DNA of 64,000 bases. Origin: Chloroflexota bacterium. Lineage in GTDB: Bacteria; Chloroflexota; UBA11872. The notes beneath the pieces were generated by a model. It was given only the letters and a program-made list of their open reading frames with translations, was not told the origin of the DNA and searched no databases. This document shows, in pieces, positions 7,883 to 56,262 of the stretch. The translations under genes and the position numbers were made by a program. The DNA lies in contig JAPOYR010000006.1 of the NCBI GenBank assembly GCA_026706485.1, positions 85,194 through 149,193 on the forward strand, written 5' to 3'. Each line of letters begins with the position of its first letter. Position 1 is the stretch's first letter.

Positions 7883-7905
7883 TTATTGCGACTCAGTGTC
7901 AATAA
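7883..7905. promoter_or_regulatory. 23-bp palindromic operator candidate upstream of metal-binding lipoprotein
   Basis: An interrupted palindrome with outer arms TTATTG/CAATAA and inner arms ACT/AGT around one central base lies 52 bases before the first metal-binding lipoprotein. Its size and AT-rich dyad suit a Fur/Zur-family metalloregulator. A second TATTGCGAC copy follows at 7911-7919. No regulator gene is seen in the window, so the assignment to Zur is inference. Confidence 0.5.
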
Positions 7906-7957
7906 ATGTATATTGCGACCAGGTATCGATTACGAAGTCTCCATCGGAGGTTGGTCA

Positions 7958-9367
7958 ATGAGGTTCCGCATCGCGCTCGCCGCGATCTTTAGCGTTCTGG
8001 TCCTGGCTACGGCCTGCGGGGAAAGCGACTCGAGTTCGGAGCGCGCCGCGGCCGTTGCGACCCCAACGCCCTCCGCCACCGAAGCGGCAGCGCCCGGCGA
8101 CCCGAGTTCGGAGCGCCTCACGGTCATCGCGACGATCTACCCGCTGGGGTACTTCGCCGAGCGTGTTGGCGGTGACCGGGCCGAGGTCACCGTGCTCGTT
8201 GAACCCGGCATCGAGGCGCACGGCTATGAAGTCACGGCGTCCGAGCTTCGGACGCTCGGCGACGCCGACGTGATCGTGATGAACGGAATCGGTCTCGAGC
8301 CGTGGATGGAGCGGGCGATACACGCCGTCGAAGACGAAATCTCGGCGGTAGTCGTGGAAGCGGCCGATCCAGCGCTGGCTATGGAGGGCGAAGTCCATAT
8401 GCACGACGACGAGGAAGAGGGCCACCACGACGACGAAGAAGGCCACCACGACGAGGACGAAGAAGGCCATCACGACGAAGATGAAGAAGGCCACCACGAC
8501 GAGGACGAAGAAGGCCATCACGACGAAGATGAAGAAGGCCACCACGACGAGGACGAAGAAGGCCATCACGACGAAGATGAAGAAGGCCACCACGACGAGG
8601 ACGAAGAAGGCCATCACGACGAAGATGAAGAAGGCCACCACGACGAGGACGAAGAAGGCCATCACGACGAAGATGAAGAAGGCCACCACGACGAGGACGA
8701 AGAAGGCCATCACGACGAAGATGAAGAAGGCCACCACGACGAGGATGAAGAAGGCCATCACGACGACGAGGAAGGCCACCATGACGACGAGGAAGGCCAC
8801 CATGACGACGAGGAAGGCCACCACCACCACGGCGAAGGCGGGCTCGACCCGCACTTCTGGCTAAGCCCGACGATGGCCGCGCGACAGGTCGAGCGCATCC
8901 GTGACGCCTTCATCACCGCGGATGCGGCCAACGCAGCCGCCTACCGGCAAAACGCGGACGAGTTGATGGCCGAGTTGGAGGAGTTGGACCGGGAATTCAC
9001 CGAGAGTCTCGTCGCCTGCAAGCACGATCACTTCGTGACTTCGCACGCGGCCTACGGCTATCTGGCCGCGCAGTACGGCCTCGAGCAGATTGCGCTGGCC
9101 GGATTCTCCCCGGAGGTGGACCCCTCGCCGCAGCGGCTAGCCAGCGTCACGGACCGCGTGACCGACCTGGGCCTGGGGCATGTGCTGGTCGAGCCGGTGC
9201 TCAGCGACCGCCTCGCGCAGACGGTGGCCCGCGAAACCGGCATCGAGCTCCGCGCCATCCACGCCATCGAGAGCGTGACGCAGAACGAGCTCGACGCGCA
9301 CGGCGACTACTTCGGCCTCATGCGCGACAACATGGCGGCGCTCAGGCTCGCCCTGGAGTGCGAATGA
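7958..9367 (+). CDS. znuA: Zinc/manganese ABC transporter substrate-binding lipoprotein with His/Asp/Glu repeat loop
   Basis: Cluster A-I metal-binding protein that captures Zn(II) (or Mn) outside the membrane for the ABC importer at 10767-12430. The ATG at 7958 is preceded by GGAGG (7946-7950). A signal peptide ends in a lipobox-like LATAC. Metal ligands fit the family: His in GIEAHGYE, His in LDPHFWLSP, His in FVTSHAAYG and an acidic residue in VLVEPVLSD. Between the first two ligands is the acidic His-rich loop, here expanded to about 140 residues with 13 tandem 8-residue units. Family loops are usually a few dozen residues. A paralogue follows at 9643. Zn is more likely than Mn because of the His-rich loop. 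Confidence 0.9.
   Translation: MRFRIALAAIFSVLVLATACGESDSSSERAAAVATPTPSATEAAAPGDPSSERLTVIATIYPLGYFAERVGGDRAEVTVLVEPGIEAHGYEVTASELRTLGDADVIVMNGIGLEPWMERAIHAVEDEISAVVVEAADPALAMEGEVHMHDDEEEGHHDDEEGHHDEDEEGHHDEDEEGHHDEDEEGHHDEDEEGHHDEDEEGHHDEDEEGHHDEDEEGHHDEDEEGHHDEDEEGHHDEDEEGHHDEDEEGHHDEDEEGHHDEDEEGHHDDEEGHHDDEEGHHDDEEGHHHHGEGGLDPHFWLSPTMAARQVERIRDAFITADAANAAAYRQNADELMAELEELDREFTESLVACKHDHFVTSHAAYGYLAAQYGLEQIALAGFSPEVDPSPQRLASVTDRVTDLGLGHVLVEPVLSDRLAQTVARETGIELRAIHAIESVTQNELDAHGDYFGLMRDNMAALRLALECE
8441..8752 (+). repeat. 13 tandem 24-bp repeats encoding Gly-His-His-Asp-Glu-Asp-Glu-Glu units
   Basis: Thirteen uninterrupted 24-base units, flanked by shorter 21-base relatives (8753-8815). Two synonymous versions alternate strictly: one uses CAC, GAG and GAC and the other CAT, GAA and GAT at the same places. 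The true DNA period is therefore 48 bases. The last unit mixes both versions. This suggests expansion of a two-unit block by slippage or unequal crossing-over, with the protein unit conserved. Confidence 0.95.
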
Positions 9368-9642: not shown

Positions 9643-10770
9643 ATGAGATTCCGCATCGTGATCGTCGCCATTCTTGGAGTGCTGGTATTCACTGCCGCCT
9701 GCGGAGAAAGCGACGGGGCGTCCGACCGCCTCCAGGTTGTCGCCACGATCTATCCGCTGGGGTACTTCGCCGAACGTGTCGGCGGTGACCGGGCCGAGGT
9801 CAGCGTGCTGGTTGGGTCGGGGATCGAGGCGCACGGTTTCGAACCTAGCCCGTCCGACTTGCTCGCGCTGGGCGACGCCGATGTGATTGTCATGAACGGG
9901 ATCGGGCTCGAGCCCTGGATGGATGGCGCGATCGACGCCATTGGGGACGACCTGACCGCGATTGTCGTGGAGGCGGCCGACCCGACGCGGGCGATGGAAG
10001 GCGAAGTTCACACGCACGGTGAAGCGGAAGGCGATCACGACGACGAAGGCGATCACGGCCACGAGGACGGTGAGCACCACGATGAAGACGGTGAACACCA
10101 CGACGAGGACGAGGGTGACCACGGCGACGAAGAGGGGCACCACGACGACGAAGACGGTGAACATCACGATGAGGACGGCGAACACCACGATGAGGACGGC
10201 GAACACCACGACGAAGACGGCCACCACGAGGGCGAAGAGCGCGCACTCGACCCCCACATGTGGCTCAGCCCCACGCTGGCCGCGCTTCAGGTCGAGCGCA
10301 TCCGCGACGCCTTCGTCTCCGCGGACGCGTCGAACGCCGACGAGTACCGGCAGCGCGCGGACGAGCTCATCGCCGAGCTCAACGCGCTGGAGCAGGAGTT
10401 TGCGGACGGTCTCGAGGCCTGCAAGCACGATCACTTCGTGACTTCGCACGCGGCGTACGGATACCTGGCCGCGCAATACGGCCTGGAGCAGATCTCGGTT
10501 GCCGGGCTATCCGCCGACGTCGCGCCCTCGCCCCAGCGGCTCGCGTCCGTCACCGACCGTGTGACCGAGCTGGAGTTGGGGCATGTGCTGGTCGAGCCCG
10601 TGCTCAGCGATCGTCTCGCACAGACCGTGGCGCGTGAAACCGGGGTGGAGCTGCTGTCCATCCACGCCATCGCGAGCGTGACGGACAACGAGCTCGAGGC
10701 GCACGGCGACTACTTCGGACTCATGCGAGACAATCTTGCAAACCTCAGGATTGCCTTGGAATGTGAATGA
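9643..10770 (+). CDS. znuA: Zinc/manganese ABC transporter substrate-binding lipoprotein, second copy
   Basis: Paralogue of the protein at 7958-9367, 375 aa. It begins at ATG 9643 with GGAG upstream, has the same MRFRI signal start and a lipobox FTAAC. The same ligand motifs appear (GIEAHGFE, LDPHMWLSP, FVTSHAAYG, VLVEPVLSD). The metal-binding loop is shorter (about 75 residues) and irregular, with HHDEDGE-type units instead of a strict array. Its stop codon overlaps the ATPase start (ATGA at 10767-10770), so this copy is translationally coupled to the transporter. Confidence 0.9.
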   Translation: MRFRIVIVAILGVLVFTAACGESDGASDRLQVVATIYPLGYFAERVGGDRAEVSVLVGSGIEAHGFEPSPSDLLALGDADVIVMNGIGLEPWMDGAIDAIGDDLTAIVVEAADPTRAMEGEVHTHGEAEGDHDDEGDHGHEDGEHHDEDGEHHDEDEGDHGDEEGHHDDEDGEHHDEDGEHHDEDGEHHDEDGHHEGEERALDPHMWLSPTLAALQVERIRDAFVSADASNADEYRQRADELIAELNALEQEFADGLEACKHDHFVTSHAAYGYLAAQYGLEQISVAGLSADVAPSPQRLASVTDRVTELELGHVLVEPVLSDRLAQTVARETGVELLSIHAIASVTDNELEAHGDYFGLMRDNLANLRIALECE

Positions 10771-11546
10771 CGTGCTCTGAGTCGCCATCGCGTCCCGTCA
10801 TCGAGTGGGATTGCGTGACGTTCGCCTACGGCGAGGCGGTGGCGGTGGAGGACGTGTCGCTCACCATCCATGCCGGGGAGCTGGCGGCGATCTTGGGGCC
10901 CAACGGCAGCGGCAAGAGCACGCTGATTCGGCTCGCCCTCGGTCTGCTCCGTCCGCTATCGGGCGCCGTGCGGCTCTTCGGGCGCAATGCGGTGGACTTC
11001 GCCGACTGGGACCGCGTCGGCTACATGCCGCAGGTGATCGCCGGGACCTGGCGCGACTTTCCCATCACCGTCGCGGAGACGGTGGCCCACGGGGCCTATC
11101 GCGGCATTTCCCCCCTCGCGCTGTTTCATCGCTCCGAGCGCCCCGAGGTCATCGAGGCGCTCGAGGCGGTGGGCATGGCGTCCTACAGGGGGCGGCGACT
11201 GTCGCAACTCTCCGTCGGCCAGCAGCAACGCGTGCTCTTGGCCCGGGCGCTCGTGCGTCAGCCGGAGCTGATCGTGCTCGACGAGCCCGCGGCCGGCATT
11301 GACGTCTCGGGCGAGGAGCAGTTGTACGCCCTCCTGCGCGACCTCAACCGCGAGCGCAACTTCACCGTCGTGCTCGTCTCACACGACATCGGGGCCATGC
11401 TGCGGGAGGCCAATACCGTGGCCTGCATGAACCGCACCCTGGTTCGTCACGGGCCGCCCCACGAGCTCACCAACGCGGAAATCGCCATGCTCTACGGCGC
11501 GCCCGTCGACGTGCTGGTCCACGACGCGCTCCACGAACACCGCTAG
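10767..11546 (+). CDS. znuC: Zinc/manganese ABC transporter ATP-binding protein
   Basis: ATPase of the metal importer, 259 aa. Walker A GPNGSGKST (residues 44-52), Q-loop MPQ, signature LSVGQQQ, Walker B LIVLDEPAAG and the switch His in VLVSHDIG are all intact. The start overlaps the preceding lipoprotein stop by four bases, and the permease follows two bases after its stop, so the three genes form one operon. Confidence 0.92.
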   Translation: MTCSESPSRPVIEWDCVTFAYGEAVAVEDVSLTIHAGELAAILGPNGSGKSTLIRLALGLLRPLSGAVRLFGRNAVDFADWDRVGYMPQVIAGTWRDFPITVAETVAHGAYRGISPLALFHRSERPEVIEALEAVGMASYRGRRLSQLSVGQQQRVLLARALVRQPELIVLDEPAAGIDVSGEEQLYALLRDLNRERNFTVVLVSHDIGAMLREANTVACMNRTLVRHGPPHELTNAEIAMLYGAPVDVLVHDALHEHR

Positions 11547-11548
11547 CC

Positions 11549-12430
11549 GTGCCGTCGATCTTTCTCTACGAGTTCATGCTGCGCGCCCTCGCCGGCGGCG
11601 TGCTCGTGGGCATGCTGGCGCCCACGCTCGGGGTATTCGTCGTGCTGCGGCGCTTCTCGCTCATTGCCGACACGCTCGCGCACGTGGCGCTGATGGGCGT
11701 GGCCGTGGGACTGGCGACCAACACGTTTCCCTCGCTGGTGGCGCTAGTGGCGGCCTGTATTGGGGCCATCGTCGTCGAGCAGTTGCGTTCGCGCGGTCGG
11801 CTTCCGGGCGACATGGCCCTGGCCGTGGTGCTTTACGGGTCACTCGCGTTTGCCGTCGTCGTGATTGGAATTGCCGGCGGCTTCAACGTCGACCTCTTCT
11901 CGTTCCTATTCGGCTCCATTCTCAGCGTGTCCCCGTTGGACCTGTGGCTCCTCGCCGGGATCACGGTTGCCGTGGTGCTGTTTGTCGGCGTGTTCTTTGT
12001 CGACCTGGCGCAGATCGCCTTCGACGACGATCTGGCGAAAGTGAACGGGGTGCGGACCGGTGCGCTCAACCTCGCGCTGGCGGTGCTAACTGGCGCCACC
12101 ATCACCCTGTCGATGCGGGTCGTCGGCGTGCTGCTGGTGGGCGCCATGCTCGTCGTGCCGGTGATGGTTGGGTTGCGGCTGGCGCGCGGCTTGCGGGCCG
12201 CCATGGCGACGGCCGTCGCGGCCGGAGTGTTCAGCGCCATCGTTGGATTGACCATCGCGTTCTACGTCGACGCCTCGGCCGGCGGCGCCACCGTGCTGAC
12301 GGCCCTGGGTCTGCTTGGACTGGCCTACGTCTGGACCTCCGTGCGTCGGTGGCGTCGCCGCGGGCGTGGCGGAGCCCCCGCCGCGGCGAGTGCCAACGGA
12401 CCGCCGGGGCACCGGCACCATCACCACTGA
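11549..12430 (+). CDS. znuB: Zinc/manganese ABC transporter permease
   Basis: Membrane subunit of the importer (ABC-3 family), 293 aa, starting at GTG 11549 just after the ATPase. It has about eight hydrophobic segments and family motifs such as LGVFVVLRRFSLIADTLAH near the N-terminus and VGVLLVGAMLVVPV in the second half. The protein ends in a His-rich cytoplasmic tail (GHRHHHH), which may bind metal. The operon order is lipoprotein, ATPase, permease. Confidence 0.92.
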   Translation: MPSIFLYEFMLRALAGGVLVGMLAPTLGVFVVLRRFSLIADTLAHVALMGVAVGLATNTFPSLVALVAACIGAIVVEQLRSRGRLPGDMALAVVLYGSLAFAVVVIGIAGGFNVDLFSFLFGSILSVSPLDLWLLAGITVAVVLFVGVFFVDLAQIAFDDDLAKVNGVRTGALNLALAVLTGATITLSMRVVGVLLVGAMLVVPVMVGLRLARGLRAAMATAVAAGVFSAIVGLTIAFYVDASAGGATVLTALGLLGLAYVWTSVRRWRRRGRGGAPAAASANGPPGHRHHHH

Positions 12431-13979: not shown

Positions 13980-16043
13980 ATGAAGCATGTTGCGGGGCGT
14001 GTAATGACCCGCCGCAATCTGTTGCGTGGTGCGTCCGCCGGCCTATTCGGCGCGGCAGGCGCGGCCGTGCTGGCGGCGTGTGGCGAGGCGCAAGTCGTCG
14101 AAAAAATCGTCACGCAGGAAGTGATCAGAGAGGTCCCGGTTGAGACCGTCGTCACCAAGGAAGTGGTGAAGGAGGTCCCGGTCGAGTCCGTGGTCACGAA
14201 GGAAGTCGTCAAGGAAGTCGCGGTCGAGAAGGTCGTGACGCAGGAAGTCATCAAGGAAGTCGTCAAGGAAGTCGAAGTCGTCAAGGAAGTGCCGAAGGAA
14301 GTCGTCAAGGAAGTCGAAGTCATCAAGGAAGTGCCGAAGGAAGTCGTCAAGGAAGTCGTCGTGACGAAGGAAGTCGAGGTCATCAAGGAAGTCACGGCCG
14401 AGATGATGATTCCGGAGGGTCCGCTCAGTGGTGAGGTCCTGACCCTCAGCGCCAGCCGCGCCAACACGCAGGACATCTTCACGCAGCTCCGCCAGGTCAG
14501 CAGCACGCAGGCCTTCGTCACCGACTACGTCTTCATGCCCCTGTGGTATGGCGACACGTGGGGTCCGGGTGAGACACCGGCGATGACCGGCCAGTGGGCG
14601 CCTGGTGTGGCCAACAGCTGGGAAGAGGTCGAGCGCAACCGCGTTTACAACTTCACGCTCAATCCGGACGTGGGTTGGCACGACGGCGCGCCGTTGACCG
14701 TCAGCGACGTGTTGTTCGGCATCGAGATGGCGTTCGACACCAACTACAACAACAACAAGCACAAGCAGGATTGGGGCGACATCGCCGGCGCCAGGGCCTG
14801 GGGCGACAACCCGACCGACAGCGCCGAGGACATCGAGGGCATCTCCGTCATCGACGAGATGACGATCCAGGTTGCGCTCGAGAAGGAGGACCCGGACTGG
14901 TGGGCGGCGGGGAGCAAGATCTTCCCCATGGCGCGCCACCACTACGCGGGACTGGACAAGGCGATTGCCACCGAGGCGCGGGCCACCAGCTTGCTGGGCA
15001 ACGGTCCGATGATCTGGGAGCGCTACGTCACGCAGCAGTTCGCCGACCTCACGGCGAACAAGAGCTACGCCTACGGCGCACCGTGGGTGGACGACTACAT
15101 CGTGCGCTACGGCGACGGCGAGGCGCTGAACGCGGCCACCGAGGCCAACGAGCAGCCGAACCCGATCGACTTCCATCGCGCGGCTGGCGGCTCACGGACC
15201 GAGGCCTTCGCGCGACTGGCGGCACAGCCGCACCTGCGGCCGTTCCCGCAGCGTTCACCGTTCGGCGGGCACGTGTTCTTCAACCAGACCGCCGAGGTCT
15301 TTGCGGACATGACCCTCGAGCAGCAGTCGCTGGTGATCGAGGCCATGGTGCGCGCGGTCGACCGCGAGACCATGAACAACGAGCTGTACGGCGGCACGCT
15401 GTTCATTTCGGACTACATCTTCGAGCACATCGCGCTGTTGCAGGACCCGCCGGAGGGCACCTTCCGCGACCTGTCCTACGACCCCGACGAGGCCCGGGCC
15501 CTGCTTGAAGAGGCCCAGTGGGACTCGGAGAAGGTCATCAAGTGGATCAAGTGGGGACCGCCATCGGCCGCGGACCTGGCGCTCAAGGACTACTGGGACC
15601 AGGTTGGCGTCAAGACCGAGTTCCTGCTGGTCGACGGTTCAGCCGTGATCGAGAAGCTGTACCAAGAGCGCGTGCACGACATGGTCATGGCGAACATGGG
15701 TGGCGGCCAGAACGCCCTGGACGCCTGTCTGCGCGTGTGCAGCGACAAGGTGTACGAGCTCGGTGGGTGGAACCACTCGAACATCAACCGCCCGTGGATC
15801 GACGAGATGTACGCGGCGGTGTTCGCGGCGGAGACGCAGGAAGAGAAGCGCGAGCGCTGGCTGGAGCTGGCCGCACGGTTGCACTCCAAGGGCAACATCG
15901 TGGCCGGCCTGCTGTGGCGCGGTTCGCTGCTGAACCTGTACCACCGCCGAGTCCAGGGCGCCTTCTGGATGCAGCACTACGCGATTCCCGTTCGGTCCCC
16001 GATCAACCAGGTGTGGATCGACCCGTACTGGGAAGAGCGGTAG
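13980..16043 (+). CDS. ABC transporter substrate-binding lipoprotein, family 5 (copy 1)
   Basis: Extracellular oligopeptide/dipeptide-type receptor (SBP_bac_5), 687 aa. ATG 13980 follows GGGGAGG. The Tat motif TRRNLL, a hydrophobic stretch and the lipobox LAAC define a Tat-exported lipoprotein. Residues from about 38 to 140 are a Val-Lys-Glu repeat tether (KEVVKEV, KEVPVE and similar), probably lifting the binding domain from the surface. The rest shows family-5 features: NFTLNPDVGWHDGAPLTVSDVLFG and the late motif DLALKDYWDQVGV. The ligand is unknown. No permease or ATPase for it is in the window. Confidence 0.92.
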   Translation: MKHVAGRVMTRRNLLRGASAGLFGAAGAAVLAACGEAQVVEKIVTQEVIREVPVETVVTKEVVKEVPVESVVTKEVVKEVAVEKVVTQEVIKEVVKEVEVVKEVPKEVVKEVEVIKEVPKEVVKEVVVTKEVEVIKEVTAEMMIPEGPLSGEVLTLSASRANTQDIFTQLRQVSSTQAFVTDYVFMPLWYGDTWGPGETPAMTGQWAPGVANSWEEVERNRVYNFTLNPDVGWHDGAPLTVSDVLFGIEMAFDTNYNNNKHKQDWGDIAGARAWGDNPTDSAEDIEGISVIDEMTIQVALEKEDPDWWAAGSKIFPMARHHYAGLDKAIATEARATSLLGNGPMIWERYVTQQFADLTANKSYAYGAPWVDDYIVRYGDGEALNAATEANEQPNPIDFHRAAGGSRTEAFARLAAQPHLRPFPQRSPFGGHVFFNQTAEVFADMTLEQQSLVIEAMVRAVDRETMNNELYGGTLFISDYIFEHIALLQDPPEGTFRDLSYDPDEARALLEEAQWDSEKVIKWIKWGPPSAADLALKDYWDQVGVKTEFLLVDGSAVIEKLYQERVHDMVMANMGGGQNALDACLRVCSDKVYELGGWNHSNINRPWIDEMYAAVFAAETQEEKRERWLELAARLHSKGNIVAGLLWRGSLLNLYHRRVQGAFWMQHYAIPVRSPINQVWIDPYWEER

Positions 16044-16362: not shown

Positions 16363-18408
16363 ATGAAGGATGTTGCGGGACGGGTCATGACCCGTCGGAA
16401 TCTGTTGCGCGGTGCGTCCGCCGGCCTTTTCGGGGCCGCGGGGGCGGCCGTGCTGGCGGCGTGTGGCGAGGCGCAAGTCGTCGAGAAAATCGTCACGCAG
16501 GAAGTGATCAAAGAGGTCCCGGTTGAGACCGTCGTCACCAAGGAAGTGGTGAAGGAGGTCCCGGTCGAGTCCGTGGTCACGAAGGAAGTCGTCAAGGAAG
16601 TCGCGGTCGAGAAGGTCGTGACGCAGGAAGTCATCAAGGAAGTCGTCAAGGAAGTCGAAGTCGTCAAGGAAGTGCCGAAGGAAGTCGTCAAGGAAGTCGA
16701 AGTCATCAAGGAAGTTCCGAAGGAAGTCGTCGTCGAGAAGGTCGTGACCAAGGAAGTCGTCGTCGAGAAGCTCGTGACCGCGGAGATGATGATTCCTGAG
16801 GGGCCGATCAGCGGTGGCACGCTCCGGCACAGCGCCGGCGGCGGCAACACCCAGGACATCTTCAACCCGCTCAAGCAGGTCAGCAGCTCGCAGGCCTACA
16901 TCACGGACTATGTGTTCCTGCCGCTGTGGTATGGCGACACGTGGGGCCCGGGTGACACGCCGGCCATGACCGGTGAGTGGGACCAAGGCGTGGCCAACAG
17001 ATGGGACGAGGTCGAGCGAGCCCGCGTCTACAACTTCCACATCAATCCGGACGTCAAATGGCATGACGGCCTGCCGGTGACGGCGGACGACGTGCTGTTC
17101 GGCGCCAAGCTGGGCCTGGACAAGAACTACGGCTCGGGCATGCACAAGAAGGCCTGGGCCCGCATCGTCGGTGCTGGCGCCTGGGGCGAGAACCCCACGG
17201 ACAACATTGAGGACGTTGAGGGCCTGTCCAAGCTCGACGAGATGACCGTGCAGGTCGCGATCGACCGGCCCGATTCGGCCTGGTGGGCGAGCCGCGACTG
17301 GCACCTGCCGCCGATGGCCCAGCACCACTACGCCGGTCTCGAGCCGGCGACGGCGCTCGAGACGCGCGCTACGCACCTTCTGGGCAACGGCCCGATGATC
17401 TGGAACCGCTACGTTTCTCAGCAGTTCGCCGACATGGCGGGGAACAAGGATTTCGCCTACGGCGCGCCCTACGTCGACGACTACGTCGTGCGCTACGGTG
17501 ACCGGACCGCCTTGGACGCGGCCATGGAGGCTGGCGAGCAGGACTTCCACCGCGGGAGCAACATCGAGGCCTTCCAGCGCCTCGCGTCGTTGCCGCACCT
17601 GCGGCCGTTCCCGCAGCGCTCGCCATTCGGCGGGCACGTGTTCTTCAACCAGACCGCCGAGGTCTTCGCCGACATGACGCTCGAGCAGCAGTCGCTGATG
17701 ATCGAGGCCATGGTGCGGGCGGTGGACCGGGACACGGTCAACAACGAGCTCCACGCGGGCACGCTGTTCATCTCGGACTACATCTTCGAGCACGTGGCGC
17801 TGATGCAGGACCCGCCCGAGGGCACCTTCCGCGCCATGCCCTACGACCCGGACGCGGCGCGCGCCCTAGTCGAGGAAGCCCAGTGGGACTCCGAGAAGGT
17901 GATCAACTGGATCAAGTGGGGGCCGCCGACGCCCACGGACCTGGCGCTCAAGAACTACTGGGAGCAGGTGGGCATCAAGGTTGAGTTCTTCCTGGTCGAC
18001 GGCTCGGCGGTGATCGAGAAGCTCTACCAGGAGCGCGTGCACGACATGGTCATGGCGAACATGGGCGGGGACCAGGCCGTCGTGGACGCGTGCCTGCGCG
18101 TGTGCAGCGACCGGGTGTACGAGCTCGGTGGCTGGAACCACTCGAACATCAACCGCCCGTGGATCGACGAGGCGTACGCCGACATGCTCGCGGCGCCGAA
18201 CAACGAGGCGCTGCGCGAGCGGTGGATCGAGTTCGCCACGCGACTCCACTCCAAGGGCAACATGGTGGCCGGACTGTTTTGGCGCGGCTCGCTGCGGAAC
18301 CTGTATCACAGGCGTCTGCAGGGGGCGTTCTACATGCAGTTCTACGCCATGCCGGTGCACTCGCCGATCGAGCGCGTGTGGCTGGACGAGTACTGGGACG
18401 AGCGGTAG
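16363..18408 (+). CDS. ABC transporter substrate-binding lipoprotein, family 5 (copy 2)
   Basis: Paralogue of copy 1, 681 aa, with the same Tat signal (TRRNLL), lipobox LAAC and Val-Lys-Glu tether. The tether is slightly rearranged at its end (VVEKVVTKEVVVEKLV in place of KEVVVTKEVEVIKEV). The binding domain has drifted from copies 1 and 3 and lacks the EANEQPNPIDF insertion near the middle. The residues lining the ligand pocket therefore probably differ. Its own upstream leader and downstream hairpins suggest a separate transcript. Confidence 0.92.
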   Translation: MKDVAGRVMTRRNLLRGASAGLFGAAGAAVLAACGEAQVVEKIVTQEVIKEVPVETVVTKEVVKEVPVESVVTKEVVKEVAVEKVVTQEVIKEVVKEVEVVKEVPKEVVKEVEVIKEVPKEVVVEKVVTKEVVVEKLVTAEMMIPEGPISGGTLRHSAGGGNTQDIFNPLKQVSSSQAYITDYVFLPLWYGDTWGPGDTPAMTGEWDQGVANRWDEVERARVYNFHINPDVKWHDGLPVTADDVLFGAKLGLDKNYGSGMHKKAWARIVGAGAWGENPTDNIEDVEGLSKLDEMTVQVAIDRPDSAWWASRDWHLPPMAQHHYAGLEPATALETRATHLLGNGPMIWNRYVSQQFADMAGNKDFAYGAPYVDDYVVRYGDRTALDAAMEAGEQDFHRGSNIEAFQRLASLPHLRPFPQRSPFGGHVFFNQTAEVFADMTLEQQSLMIEAMVRAVDRDTVNNELHAGTLFISDYIFEHVALMQDPPEGTFRAMPYDPDAARALVEEAQWDSEKVINWIKWGPPTPTDLALKNYWEQVGIKVEFFLVDGSAVIEKLYQERVHDMVMANMGGDQAVVDACLRVCSDRVYELGGWNHSNINRPWIDEAYADMLAAPNNEALRERWIEFATRLHSKGNMVAGLFWRGSLRNLYHRRLQGAFYMQFYAMPVHSPIERVWLDEYWDER

Positions 18409-18774: not shown

Positions 18775-20835
18775 ATGAAGCATGTTGCGGGACGGGTCAT
18801 GACCCGTCGAAATCTATTGCGCGGTGCGTCCGCCGGCCTATTCGGCGCGGCAGGCGCGGCCGTGCTGGCGGCGTGTGGCGAGGCGCAAGTCGTCGAAAAA
18901 ATCGTCACGCAGGAAGTGATCAGAGAGGTCCCGGTTGAGACCGTCGTCACCAAGGAAGTGGTGAAGGAGGTCCCGGTCGAGTCCGTGGTCACGAAGGAAG
19001 TCGTCAAGGAAGTCGCGGTCGAGAAGGTCGTGACGCAGGAAGTCATCAAGGAAGTCGTCAAGGAAGTCGAAGTCGTCAAGGAAGTGCCGAAGGAAGTCGT
19101 CAAGGAAGTCGAAGTCATCAAGGAAGTGCCGAAGGAAGTCGTCAAGGAAGTCGTCGTGACGAAGGAAGTCGAGGTCATCAAGGAAGTCACGGCCGAGATG
19201 ATGATTCCGGACGGCCCGCTCAGCGGCGGCACGCTGACGCTCAGCGCCAGTCGCGCCAACACGCAGGACATCTTCACGCCGCTGCGCGCCGTCAGCAGCA
19301 CGCAGGGGTTCGTGTTTGGCTACGTCTATGAACCGCTGTGGATCGGCGACACCTGGGGCATGGGCGAGACGCCGCAGATGACCGGCCAATGGGATAAGGC
19401 CCTGGCCAGCAGCTGGGAGGAAGTTGAGCAGGACCGCTCCTACATCTTCCATCTCAACCCCGACATCTGGTGGCACGACCGCACGCGTGTGGTCGACGCC
19501 GACGATGTGCTGTTCGGCATGGAGATGGCGTTCGACCCGGCCTACAACAACAACAAGCACAAGACGGCTTGGGGCGACATCGAGGGTGTGAAGGCCTGGG
19601 CGGAGAACCCGACCGACAGCATCACCGACGCCTCGGGTGTGTCCAAGATTGACGAGATGACGGTCCAGGTCACGATCGAGCGGCCCGACAACAACTGGTG
19701 GGCGTCCGGCAGCAAGGTCTTTGCCATGCCGCGGCACCACTTTGCGGGCCTGGACAAGGCAATCGCGACCGAAGCGCGGGCGGTGGACCTCCTCGGCAAT
19801 GGCCCGATGATCTTCGAACGCTACGTCACCCAGCAGTTCGCCGACCTCACGTCGAACAAGGACTGGGCCTACGGCGCGCCGTATGTGGACGACTACGTCG
19901 TGCGCTATGGCGACGGCGCGGCGCTCGACGCGGCCACCGAGGCCAACGAGCAGCCGAACCCGATCGACTTCCACCGTGCGGCGGGCGGCATCGAGGCCTT
20001 CGCGCGGTTGGCGGCGCAGGCGCACCTGCGGCCGTTCCCACAGCGCTCACCGTTCGCGTCCGGCGTGTTCCTCAACCAGACGGCGGAGATCTTCGCCGAC
20101 ATGACCCTCGAGCAGCAGTCAATGCTGATCGAGGCCATGGTGCTGGCGGTGGACCGTGAGCAGTTGAACAACGAGCTGCACGGCGGCACGCGGTTCATCT
20201 CGGACTACATCTTCGAGCACGTGGCGCTGCTGTCGGACCCGCCCGAGGGCACCTTCCGCGACCTGTCCTACAACCCGGACGCCGCACGTGAACTGCTCGC
20301 GGAATCGGGCTGGGACTCGAGCAAGGTCATCAAGTGGATGCGGTGGCGAGCGCCGGCGCCGCGTGATCTGGCCATCAAGGCCTACTGGGACGAGGTCGGA
20401 ATCCAGACCGAGTTCCTGATCATCGATGGCTCCGCCGTGATCGAGAAGCTCTACCAGGAGCGGGTGCACGATCTGGTGTTCGCCAACATGGGCGGCGACC
20501 AGAACCCCGTGGACGCGTGCCTGCGGATCTGCAGCGACCGGCTGTATGAGCTGGGTGGTTGGAACCACTCGAACATCAACCGGCCGTGGATCGACGAGGC
20601 GTACGCGGCCATCCTCGGCGCGGCAAACGCCGAAGAGCGGCGCGAGGCGTGGTTGGAGATGGCGACGCGGCTGCATGCGCGCGGTGAAATGGTTTACGGC
20701 CAGTTCTCGCGCGGGTCGCTGCTGAACCTGTACCACCGCCGGGTCAAGGGCGCGTTCTGGATGCAGAACTACGCCATTCCCGTGCGGTCGCCGATCAACC
20801 TGGTGTGGATCGACCCGTACTGGGAAGAGCGGTAG
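18775..20835 (+). CDS. ABC transporter substrate-binding lipoprotein, family 5 (copy 3)
   Basis: Third tandem paralogue, 686 aa, with the Tat motif TRRNLL, lipobox LAAC, repeat tether and family-5 binding domain (FHLNPDIWWHD, DLAIKAYWDEVGI). From the signal region to the end of the tether its DNA appears identical to copy 1 (18825-19213 against 14028-14416), while the binding domains differ throughout. This suggests recent exchange of the leader between copies. No cognate permease in the window. Confidence 0.92.
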   Translation: MKHVAGRVMTRRNLLRGASAGLFGAAGAAVLAACGEAQVVEKIVTQEVIREVPVETVVTKEVVKEVPVESVVTKEVVKEVAVEKVVTQEVIKEVVKEVEVVKEVPKEVVKEVEVIKEVPKEVVKEVVVTKEVEVIKEVTAEMMIPDGPLSGGTLTLSASRANTQDIFTPLRAVSSTQGFVFGYVYEPLWIGDTWGMGETPQMTGQWDKALASSWEEVEQDRSYIFHLNPDIWWHDRTRVVDADDVLFGMEMAFDPAYNNNKHKTAWGDIEGVKAWAENPTDSITDASGVSKIDEMTVQVTIERPDNNWWASGSKVFAMPRHHFAGLDKAIATEARAVDLLGNGPMIFERYVTQQFADLTSNKDWAYGAPYVDDYVVRYGDGAALDAATEANEQPNPIDFHRAAGGIEAFARLAAQAHLRPFPQRSPFASGVFLNQTAEIFADMTLEQQSMLIEAMVLAVDREQLNNELHGGTRFISDYIFEHVALLSDPPEGTFRDLSYNPDAARELLAESGWDSSKVIKWMRWRAPAPRDLAIKAYWDEVGIQTEFLIIDGSAVIEKLYQERVHDLVFANMGGDQNPVDACLRICSDRLYELGGWNHSNINRPWIDEAYAAILGAANAEERREAWLEMATRLHARGEMVYGQFSRGSLLNLYHRRVKGAFWMQNYAIPVRSPINLVWIDPYWEER

Positions 20836-54021: not shown

Positions 54022-56262
54022 TCAGGCCGGGCGGCAGTTGGGGTAGTCGTCGCGGGCGGGGGTTGAACTCGCGGGATACGGCGGGCCGATCAGCGCGTCG
54101 GGCAGGCGCTCGAGGAAGTCCGGGTCGGCCACGACCACGTCGCACCAATAGAGCCCCAGCGCCTGGAACGTCGCGGGGTTCGGCACGTGCCGCCATTGGT
54201 GCGTCTCGGAGTCCCAGCGGAAGACGCGGTCGTCGTCATTGCCGACGAAGCGTATCGCCTGCCGCGGCACCGTGGGCAGCCCGTCCAGCGGGATCGCGGC
54301 GAGCACGGCTGTGGGCACGGTGTACCGCTCGAGCACGTCGGGCCAGGGGATCTGACTGACCAGCGGACTGTCGGGCGGCACCCAGCGCCGCACCACCCCG
54401 CCGTCCGAGTCGAGGGGCTCGCGCCGCACGATGATATAGGTCTGACCGTTGGTCTCGTCCCGAATGATGCCGCCAAGGACGACGTCCTGCCGGTCGGCGG
54501 AGACGCTGCCGATGTCCAACTCTAGGACCGTGCCCGGCAGGTCGCGGCGCTCTAGCCGCAAAGGCGCTCCATCGTCCGGCGGCAGGATGGCCTGGGCGGC
54601 GGCGGTGGCGCCGATGACCTTGGGCTGCGGAGGCGGCGGGGGTTTGGGCTTCGGCTTGGATTTGGGCTTGGACTCCCGCTTGGGCTCGGGCTCGGACTCT
54701 TCCTCGCGCACGGGGAAAAAGTCCCGGTCGAGCTCCGTGTCGCCCCGGCACGGCCCGCTGCGCACCACTTCCAGCTCGGGGCTGGTGCGCGGTGTGGCCA
54801 GGCTGGCCGGAAGCTGGGAGGTCGCCAACTGCAACCGGCGATTGCCCTGCAGGTGCAGCACCGTCTTCAAGGGGTTGCCTTGCCTGTCGTTGCCCGTCAC
54901 CCCGCTGCCGGCGCTGCCCAGTGCGTCGGGCAGGCTGCCGCTGAGGTCGTTGCACGACAGCCCTAGCACCCGGACCTTCGAGAGCTGCCCGAGTTCGGCC
55001 GGGACCTCACCGGTCAACCCGGTCTTGTCCAGCAACAGTGTCGTTAAGTTCGTCAGGCTGCCCAGCCAGGTGGGAATCGACCCGCCCAAATCCGGGTTCC
55101 GGTGCAGCGACAGCTGCACCAGCCTCGTAAGGTCGCCCAACTCGGTAGGAATGCCTCCGGTCAGCTGATTCTGGTCCAGGTAGAGGTACTTCAGCTTGCT
55201 CAGGTTGCCGAGCTCGACGGGGATTGAGCCGTCCAACTGGTTGGCGTTCGCTTGAAACCACACCAGCTTGCTCAGGCTGCCGAGTTCGGGCGGGATCGAC
55301 CCGGTCAACTGGTTCGTATCCAGGAACAGATACTGCATGTTGCTCATGGTGCCCAGCTCGGGCGGGATCGACCCGGTCAGCTGGTTGTCCCAGAGGGACA
55401 GCTGAAACAGCTTGCTCAGGCTGCCGAAGCCAGGCGGGATCGAGCCGGTGAGCTGGTTTTCGCTCAGCAGAATGTCCGCCAGATTTGAGAGATTGGTCAG
55501 CTCGGTGGGGATCGAGCCGGTCAGCTGGTTGTCTTGCAGGTAGAGCTTCGTCAGGTTGCTCAGGTTGCCGAGCTCGGGCGGGATCGACCCCGTCAGCTGA
55601 TTCTCCCGCAGGGCCAAATCCGTCAGGCTGGCGATACTGCCCAGCTCGGGCGGGATCGAACCGCTTAGCTCGTTCCTGCCCAGATTCAAACTCTGCAGGC
55701 TGCTCAAGTTGGCAAGCTCGGCAGGGATCGAGCCGTCCAGTTGGTTGTGCTCCAGCAGCAGATGCGTCAGGTTCGCCAGGTTGCCCAACTCCGCGGGGAT
55801 CGAGCCGGTCAGCTTGTTGCCGCCCACGTGCAAGGTGATCAGGTTCGAGAGGTTGCCCAACTCTGCAGGAATCGAGCCGGTCAAGTCGTTGTTGGGCAAC
55901 CACAGGCGCTCCAGGTTCGGGAGGCTGCCCAGCCCGGCCGGGACGGTCCCCGCCAGCCTGGGGTCGGTCCTGGTTCTGAAGTCGATCCACCTAACGCCCG
56001 CCGTCGCGTTGCTCGAAATCTTCTGCCACGACGCGAGCGGCGTGCCCTCCGCCCAGTTCAGCGTGCCGTTGGGGTCGAGCTCGCTCTTCAGGTCGATCAG
56101 GGTGCGGCAGTCCCGGATCAGGGCGGCGCTGGCCTGCGAGCTGCAGTGGCTGCTCGCGTTGGCCCGGCCTGCGGCCACCAGGGCCAGCCCAAGCAGCAAG
56201 ACCGCCGCGACCGCCCATCGCCACGCGACCGCGGCGCCCGTGAGCTTTAGCGCCGGGGGCAC
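54022..56262 (-). CDS. Secreted leucine-rich-repeat protein of plant-like type
   Basis: Exported protein, about 746 aa from GTG 56262. A Sec signal peptide (AVAAVLLLGLALVAAGRANA) is followed by a Cys-containing cap, then about 14 repeats of 24 residues with the plant-type consensus LxxLxLxxNxLTGSIPxELGNLS (for example residues in NQLTGSIPPELG). A Lys/Glu/Pro linker (SEPEPKRESKPKSKPKPK) leads to a C-terminal domain of about 190 residues I do not recognise. It may bind glycans or proteins at the surface. The frame is open up to 56454, but that part is Arg/Pro-rich and unlike a protein. No sortase motif seen. Confidence 0.85.
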   Translation of the reverse strand: MPPALKLTGAAVAWRWAVAAVLLLGLALVAAGRANASSHCSSQASAALIRDCRTLIDLKSELDPNGTLNWAEGTPLASWQKISSNATAGVRWIDFRTRTDPRLAGTVPAGLGSLPNLERLWLPNNDLTGSIPAELGNLSNLITLHVGGNKLTGSIPAELGNLANLTHLLLEHNQLDGSIPAELANLSSLQSLNLGRNELSGSIPPELGSIASLTDLALRENQLTGSIPPELGNLSNLTKLYLQDNQLTGSIPTELTNLSNLADILLSENQLTGSIPPGFGSLSKLFQLSLWDNQLTGSIPPELGTMSNMQYLFLDTNQLTGSIPPELGSLSKLVWFQANANQLDGSIPVELGNLSKLKYLYLDQNQLTGGIPTELGDLTRLVQLSLHRNPDLGGSIPTWLGSLTNLTTLLLDKTGLTGEVPAELGQLSKVRVLGLSCNDLSGSLPDALGSAGSGVTGNDRQGNPLKTVLHLQGNRRLQLATSQLPASLATPRTSPELEVVRSGPCRGDTELDRDFFPVREEESEPEPKRESKPKSKPKPKPPPPPQPKVIGATAAAQAILPPDDGAPLRLERRDLPGTVLELDIGSVSADRQDVVLGGIIRDETNGQTYIIVRREPLDSDGGVVRRWVPPDSPLVSQIPWPDVLERYTVPTAVLAAIPLDGLPTVPRQAIRFVGNDDDRVFRWDSETHQWRHVPNPATFQALGLYWCDVVVADPDFLERLPDALIGPPYPASSTPARDDYPNCRPA

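Follow-up and report, generated by a model that had tools for sequence, protein, structure and literature searches.

The locus described here raises the question of why a bacterial gene of apparently ordinary type carries, in the middle of its coding sequence, a tandem array so regular that its DNA period is twice the period of its protein. The window, i.e. the whole stretch of DNA analysed, comprises 64,000 nucleotides from the genome of an uncultured Chloroflexota bacterium. A first-pass annotation had described the gene as encoding a metal-binding lipoprotein with 13 tandem repeats of 24 bp at 8441-8752, formed by two synonymous versions of one unit and thus having a DNA period of 48 bp. 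Our codon reading found this description correct to the base. The gene and the parts of its repetitive region are:

7958..9367, + strand: receptor gene 1, a ZnuA/AdcA-type (PF01297) metal-binding lipoprotein of 469 residues, assigned by its PF01297 match
8369..8842, + strand: the entire His/acid-rich loop, 158 residues, predicted to be disordered (boundaries anchored by profiles; pLDDT)
8396..8440, + strand: degenerate 5' units HMHDDEEE and GHHDDEE, the latter of 21 bp (codon reading)
8441..8752, + strand: array of 13 x 24 bp (GHHDEDEE) with a 48-bp higher-order period (codon-by-codon reading, Tandem Repeats Finder)
8753..8836, + strand: 3' units, three of 21 bp (GHHDDEE) plus GHHHHGE (codon reading)

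The gene 1 product, which starts at the ATG at 7958 and has the lipobox LATAC, matched PF01297 with 1e-62 and 212.5 bits (cut-off 29) over profile positions 1-261 of 263, i.e. over both lobes. The solved structures nearest to it by sequence are AdcA and YcdH. The core of its AlphaFold model reached a TM-score by target length of 0.92 against 7jj8 (Foldseek), which shows the same arrangement of two lobes joined by a long rigid helix; pLDDT was mostly 70-97 in the core and below 50 in loop residues 142-297, with an overall mean of 60. The match, the lipobox and the AdcA-like fold place the protein in the Zn-type ABC receptor family and thereby bear out the assignment as a metal-binding lipoprotein. 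His 88, 299 and 363, invariant in 11 of 11 aligned sequences, are the probable high-affinity metal ligands, and D450 or H448 might serve as the fourth. No curated zinc or manganese equivalog in NCBIfam reached its cut-off; the scores were 123.9 bits for ZnuA (NF007091, cut-off 268), 96.3 bits for two-domain AdcA (NF033605, cut-off 700) and 182.1 bits for AztC (NF040870, cut-off 350), the last being the best NCBIfam model all the same. Thus zinc, rather than manganese, is the probable substrate as judged from the loop and the operon. PF01297 was the only domain found and the chain stops after the receptor fold; a C-terminal ZinT-like domain is absent. An antisense frame of 299 residues over gene 1 (7955-8854) was dismissed as a by-product, since the complements of His, Asp, Glu and Gly codons contain no stops.

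Gene 1 is the first gene of a Zn-type ABC operon; the genes for another binding protein, an ATPase and a permease come after it:

7886..7902, + strand: tentative operator palindrome TTGCGACTCAGTGTCAA 5' of gene 1 (weak; partial conservation)
9643..10770, + strand: paralogous receptor gene 2 with an irregular His/acid loop of 88 residues (PF01297, 1.5e-73)
10767..11546, + strand: importer ABC ATPase (PF00005, 1.9e-28; best NCBIfam model AztA, under its cut-off)
11549..12430, + strand: ABC-3 family permease with a His-rich C-terminus, GHRHHHH (PF00950, 6e-58)

In the sister genus, a gene for a FUR-family regulator lies directly upstream of the gene 1 orthologue. The PF01297 lipoprotein with its Zn-type loop, the accompanying operon genes and the FUR-family gene of the sister genus make zinc import the likely function of the operon. 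The palindrome is the sole exact match in the genome. An operator common to the relatives was not upheld: the palindrome is clearly kept in the congener G003 and partly in G004, and it is hence listed as tentative. In another genome (G007), a long frame near the receptor operon (L159 4985-6289) contains a segment very rich in His and Asp, DHDHDHGHDHDH; perhaps it encodes a second zinc-handling protein.

The array forms the middle of the His/acid-rich loop of gene 1, i.e. of the canonical Zn loop, which contains 40 His and 89 Asp/Glu in its 158 residues. Version A of the unit reads GGC CAC CAC GAC GAG GAC GAA GAA and version B GGC CAT CAC GAC GAA GAT GAA GAA; three third positions, all synonymous, set them apart (CAC/CAT, GAG/GAA and GAC/GAT). 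The strict alternation of the two versions claimed earlier holds for units 1-12 and ends at copy 13, a third synonymous form (CAC..GAG GAT). This form is identical to a unit in G003 and looks ancestral rather than hybrid. Over 8402-8824, Tandem Repeats Finder gave 94% matches for the 48-bp period versus 87% for 24 bp, and within the array 1 of 264 positions mismatched at a lag of 48 versus 35 of 288 at a lag of 24. At lag 48 the longest exact run extends over 263 bp. Any other surveyed loop reached at most 103 bp at any lag, so the periodicity is far beyond chance.

We considered whether the alternation of codons carries a meaning and rejected the idea: A and B differ at the three synonymous sites only, each one or two steps away from the unit in G003 and copy 13. 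Amplification of a dimer accounts for the alternation, which thus has no coding information or function of its own.

The loops of related receptors were surveyed with anchored profiles, which yielded 117 distinct loops from one genome per species. The loop of gene 1 is the longest of these, barring two with an inserted folded domain, and previously characterised receptor loops have 12-50 residues (PMC4542158). In the congeneric orthologues of gene 1 the loop has 109 (G002), 70 (G003), 63 (G004) and about 123 residues (G005); that of G001 is unassembled. The loops of the gene 2 paralogues have 88, 120, 88, 100 and 104 residues, and the one in the window is, as had been noted from the sequence, shorter and less regular than that of gene 1. 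The readable congener loops each differ in length and unit, and each is built from its own tandem units, some of them locally homogenised (GHHDDDEE x6 in G002, GHHDDEEE x4 in G005); a single copy number fixed in all relatives was accordingly not seen at the species level. The first-pass annotation had contrasted the long regular loop with a short irregular norm. This was overstated, as in this lineage the loops are as a rule long and regular. A third PF01297 protein of these genomes serves as an internal control: its loop, with at most one His, was constant at 15 residues in 16 of 16 distinct cases, which confines expansion to the His-loop type. No paper on tandem repeats in ZnuA loops was found in the collection of papers searched.

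Tandem repeats were also observed elsewhere in the window. In three solute-binding lipoproteins, KEV/VVKEV arrays directly follow the lipobox (14107-14393, 16477-16779 and 18902-19188). The arrays at 14.1 and 18.9 kb share about 95-98% identity, and at one and the same offset the identity of the coding DNA beyond them drops to the background level. Array exchange between the genes or an indel-shifted duplication may be the cause. At 54586-55931, Tandem Repeats Finder reported tandem repeats of 72 bp whose appearance suggests a leucine-rich-repeat protein.

The array of gene 1 is younger than the split from the nearest sampled relative, as judged from its synonymous sites. In the flanks of gene 1, 22 of 170 synonymous third positions differ from the nearest sampled congener; between lag-48 copies within the array, 1 of 88 codons differs. 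If the thirteen units had existed separately ever since that split, some 7 changes should have accumulated over 104 codons; one was seen (P about 0.009, a rough value, as copied units are not fully independent and the A/B difference itself predates the amplification). The recent expansion suspected in the first-pass annotation is therefore supported.

The units are nevertheless not free to change in every respect. Over the distinct units of the genus, the codons of the His pair are CAC 67 times, CAT 19 times and a non-His codon twice, whereas drift alone would favour non-synonymous changes of His codons by roughly 3-8 to one. Even with a conservative count of 8 independent changes, this retention has P <=0.006 under neutrality (again rough, given that copied units are not independent). 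The His pairs are thus held by purifying selection. In the acidic runs, Asp and Glu swap freely and one non-acidic replacement (Ala) occurs. By this comparison, the conserved feature is two histidines within an acidic stretch and not the exact unit.

How far these data reach depends on the assembly. An exact periodic run of 263 bp exceeds the k-mers commonly used in de Bruijn graphs for short-read assembly, so the assembler might have collapsed or expanded the array and the true repeat number might differ. Signs of such trouble are visible in the congeners: in G005 two contigs (the start of L153 and the end of L152) meet at the array with an overlap of 55 bp, and in G001 a gap of 100 N lies inside it (L151 5478-5577). 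However, the window is part of a 190-kb contig in an assembly of 13 contigs, the frame is intact, and the congeners also have long arrays, made of different units. An artefact is thus improbable; the intact frame and the congener arrays make the existence of the array safe, while the precise figure of 13 hinges on the assembly. Since short-read assemblies break at the array, loop lengths taken from databases need caution. The break in G005 would also be compatible with co-existing length variants, as expected if this were a contingency-type locus, in which copy-number changes within populations would adjust zinc capture from strain to strain. The first-pass annotation had likewise suggested that the length could vary between strains and alter the metal-buffering capacity. 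The recent amplification, the restriction to in-frame units and the different length in every readable congener fit this idea. Yet the break may come from the repeat alone and the data comprise one genome per species, and we regard such a locus as unlikely.

A stronger contender is neutral drift, i.e. that slippage makes a disordered loop grow and shrink while its length is unselected, as long as some His pairs and the frame remain. The loop lengths are indeed erratic, both between close relatives and between paralogues; the order of Asp and Glu and the step of 21 or 24 bp differ freely between units; and the arrays in the linkers of other lipoproteins in the window indicate that repeats are generally tolerated. 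The purifying selection on the His pairs across units and the constant length of the His-free loop in the third receptor speak against it, but both bear on content, and length may still be neutral. Neutral length is therefore a reading to which we give serious weight, if somewhat less than an even chance.

We think it likely, though not certain, that gene 1 encodes the extracytoplasmic zinc receptor of a ZnuABC/AdcABC-type importer, in which the His/acid loop has grown by in-frame tandem duplication and acts as a zinc-collecting tether. Modules of 21-24 bp would have been duplicated in frame, by replication slippage or unequal recombination, giving a longer disordered loop. Two 24-bp copies would then have drifted apart at three synonymous sites to form one 48-bp dimer, and this dimer would recently have been amplified to 6.5 copies; the codon alternation would be a fossil of it. 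The loop would provide many zinc sites of low affinity (micromolar in studied relatives), raise the local zinc concentration beside the single high-affinity site and then hand the zinc over, with more units presumably meaning more transient sites. In studied relatives the loop binds zinc with micromolar affinity next to a nanomolar site (PMC4542158), and AztC needs its loop histidines to take over zinc from the chaperone AztD (PMC7463823). In AdcA the loop helps to recruit zinc under restriction, where its loss hurts only under that condition and without the second accessory domain; deletion of the loop alone had no effect on growth, which counts against the tether (PMC7858048). The role of His-rich loops in zinc receptors is still poorly defined. 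Loops of 34-158 residues in this lineage, with His kept and length free, offer a natural length series for asking whether loop size sets zinc capture.

In four Chloroflexota genomes, an AztD zinc chaperone domain (NF038015, E 4e-25 to 5e-35) is nested within the receptor loop:

L023/L170 (G033 C41:29445-30542): AztC-AztD fusion locus (NF038015)
L027/L171 (G031 C34:23884-24984): AztC-AztD fusion locus (NF038015)
L172:604-3126 (G320): AztC-AztD fusion locus (NF038015)
L173:679-3114 (G233): AztC-AztD fusion locus (NF038015)

These proteins are AztC-AztD fusions that arose by insertion, of which the collection of papers searched gave no report; the window genome gave no AztD match. The insertion point occupied by a His/acid polymer in gene 1 thus holds a zinc chaperone in other genomes, in support of a role of the loop in feeding zinc to the receptor. 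In a further receptor (L029, G051 C46), the same loop holds an insert of about 100 residues that looks like a beta domain. One could go further and see the loop as an evolvable zinc collector in continual turnover, in which a His/acid polymer, possibly of variable length within populations, or an AztD insert does the same job; this extension is tentative, and we rather doubt it.

Among known systems, the closest counterparts are the orthologues in the genus and family (G001-G005, G010, G019 and others), in which the same loop position is lengthened by in-frame tandem duplication. They differ in having their own units and lengths, with longest exact runs of at most 103 bp versus 263 bp in gene 1. 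Pzp1 (ZnuA) of H. influenzae likewise has a long His/acid region, at about 50 residues the longest characterised (PMC4542158), yet, by its described length, about one third as long as the gene 1 loop. AztC of the AztABCD system of Paracoccus denitrificans shares a His/Asp/Glu loop near the metal site and provides the best NCBIfam model; unlike that system, gene 1 scores 182 bits on this model (cut-off 350) and its genome lacks an AztD gene. With the N-terminal domain of S. pneumoniae AdcA (7jj8) and B. subtilis ZnuA/YcdH (2o1e), gene 1 shares the fold, the lipoprotein nature and a disordered His/Glu-rich loop at the same place. In AdcA, however, this loop has 17 residues (120-136) in contrast to a regular 158, and a ZinT-like domain follows at the C-terminus (PMC7858048), which the gene 1 product does not have. 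Measured against these systems, the array is a genuine expansion, recent and extreme, of a part already known from zinc uptake and not a new kind of system.
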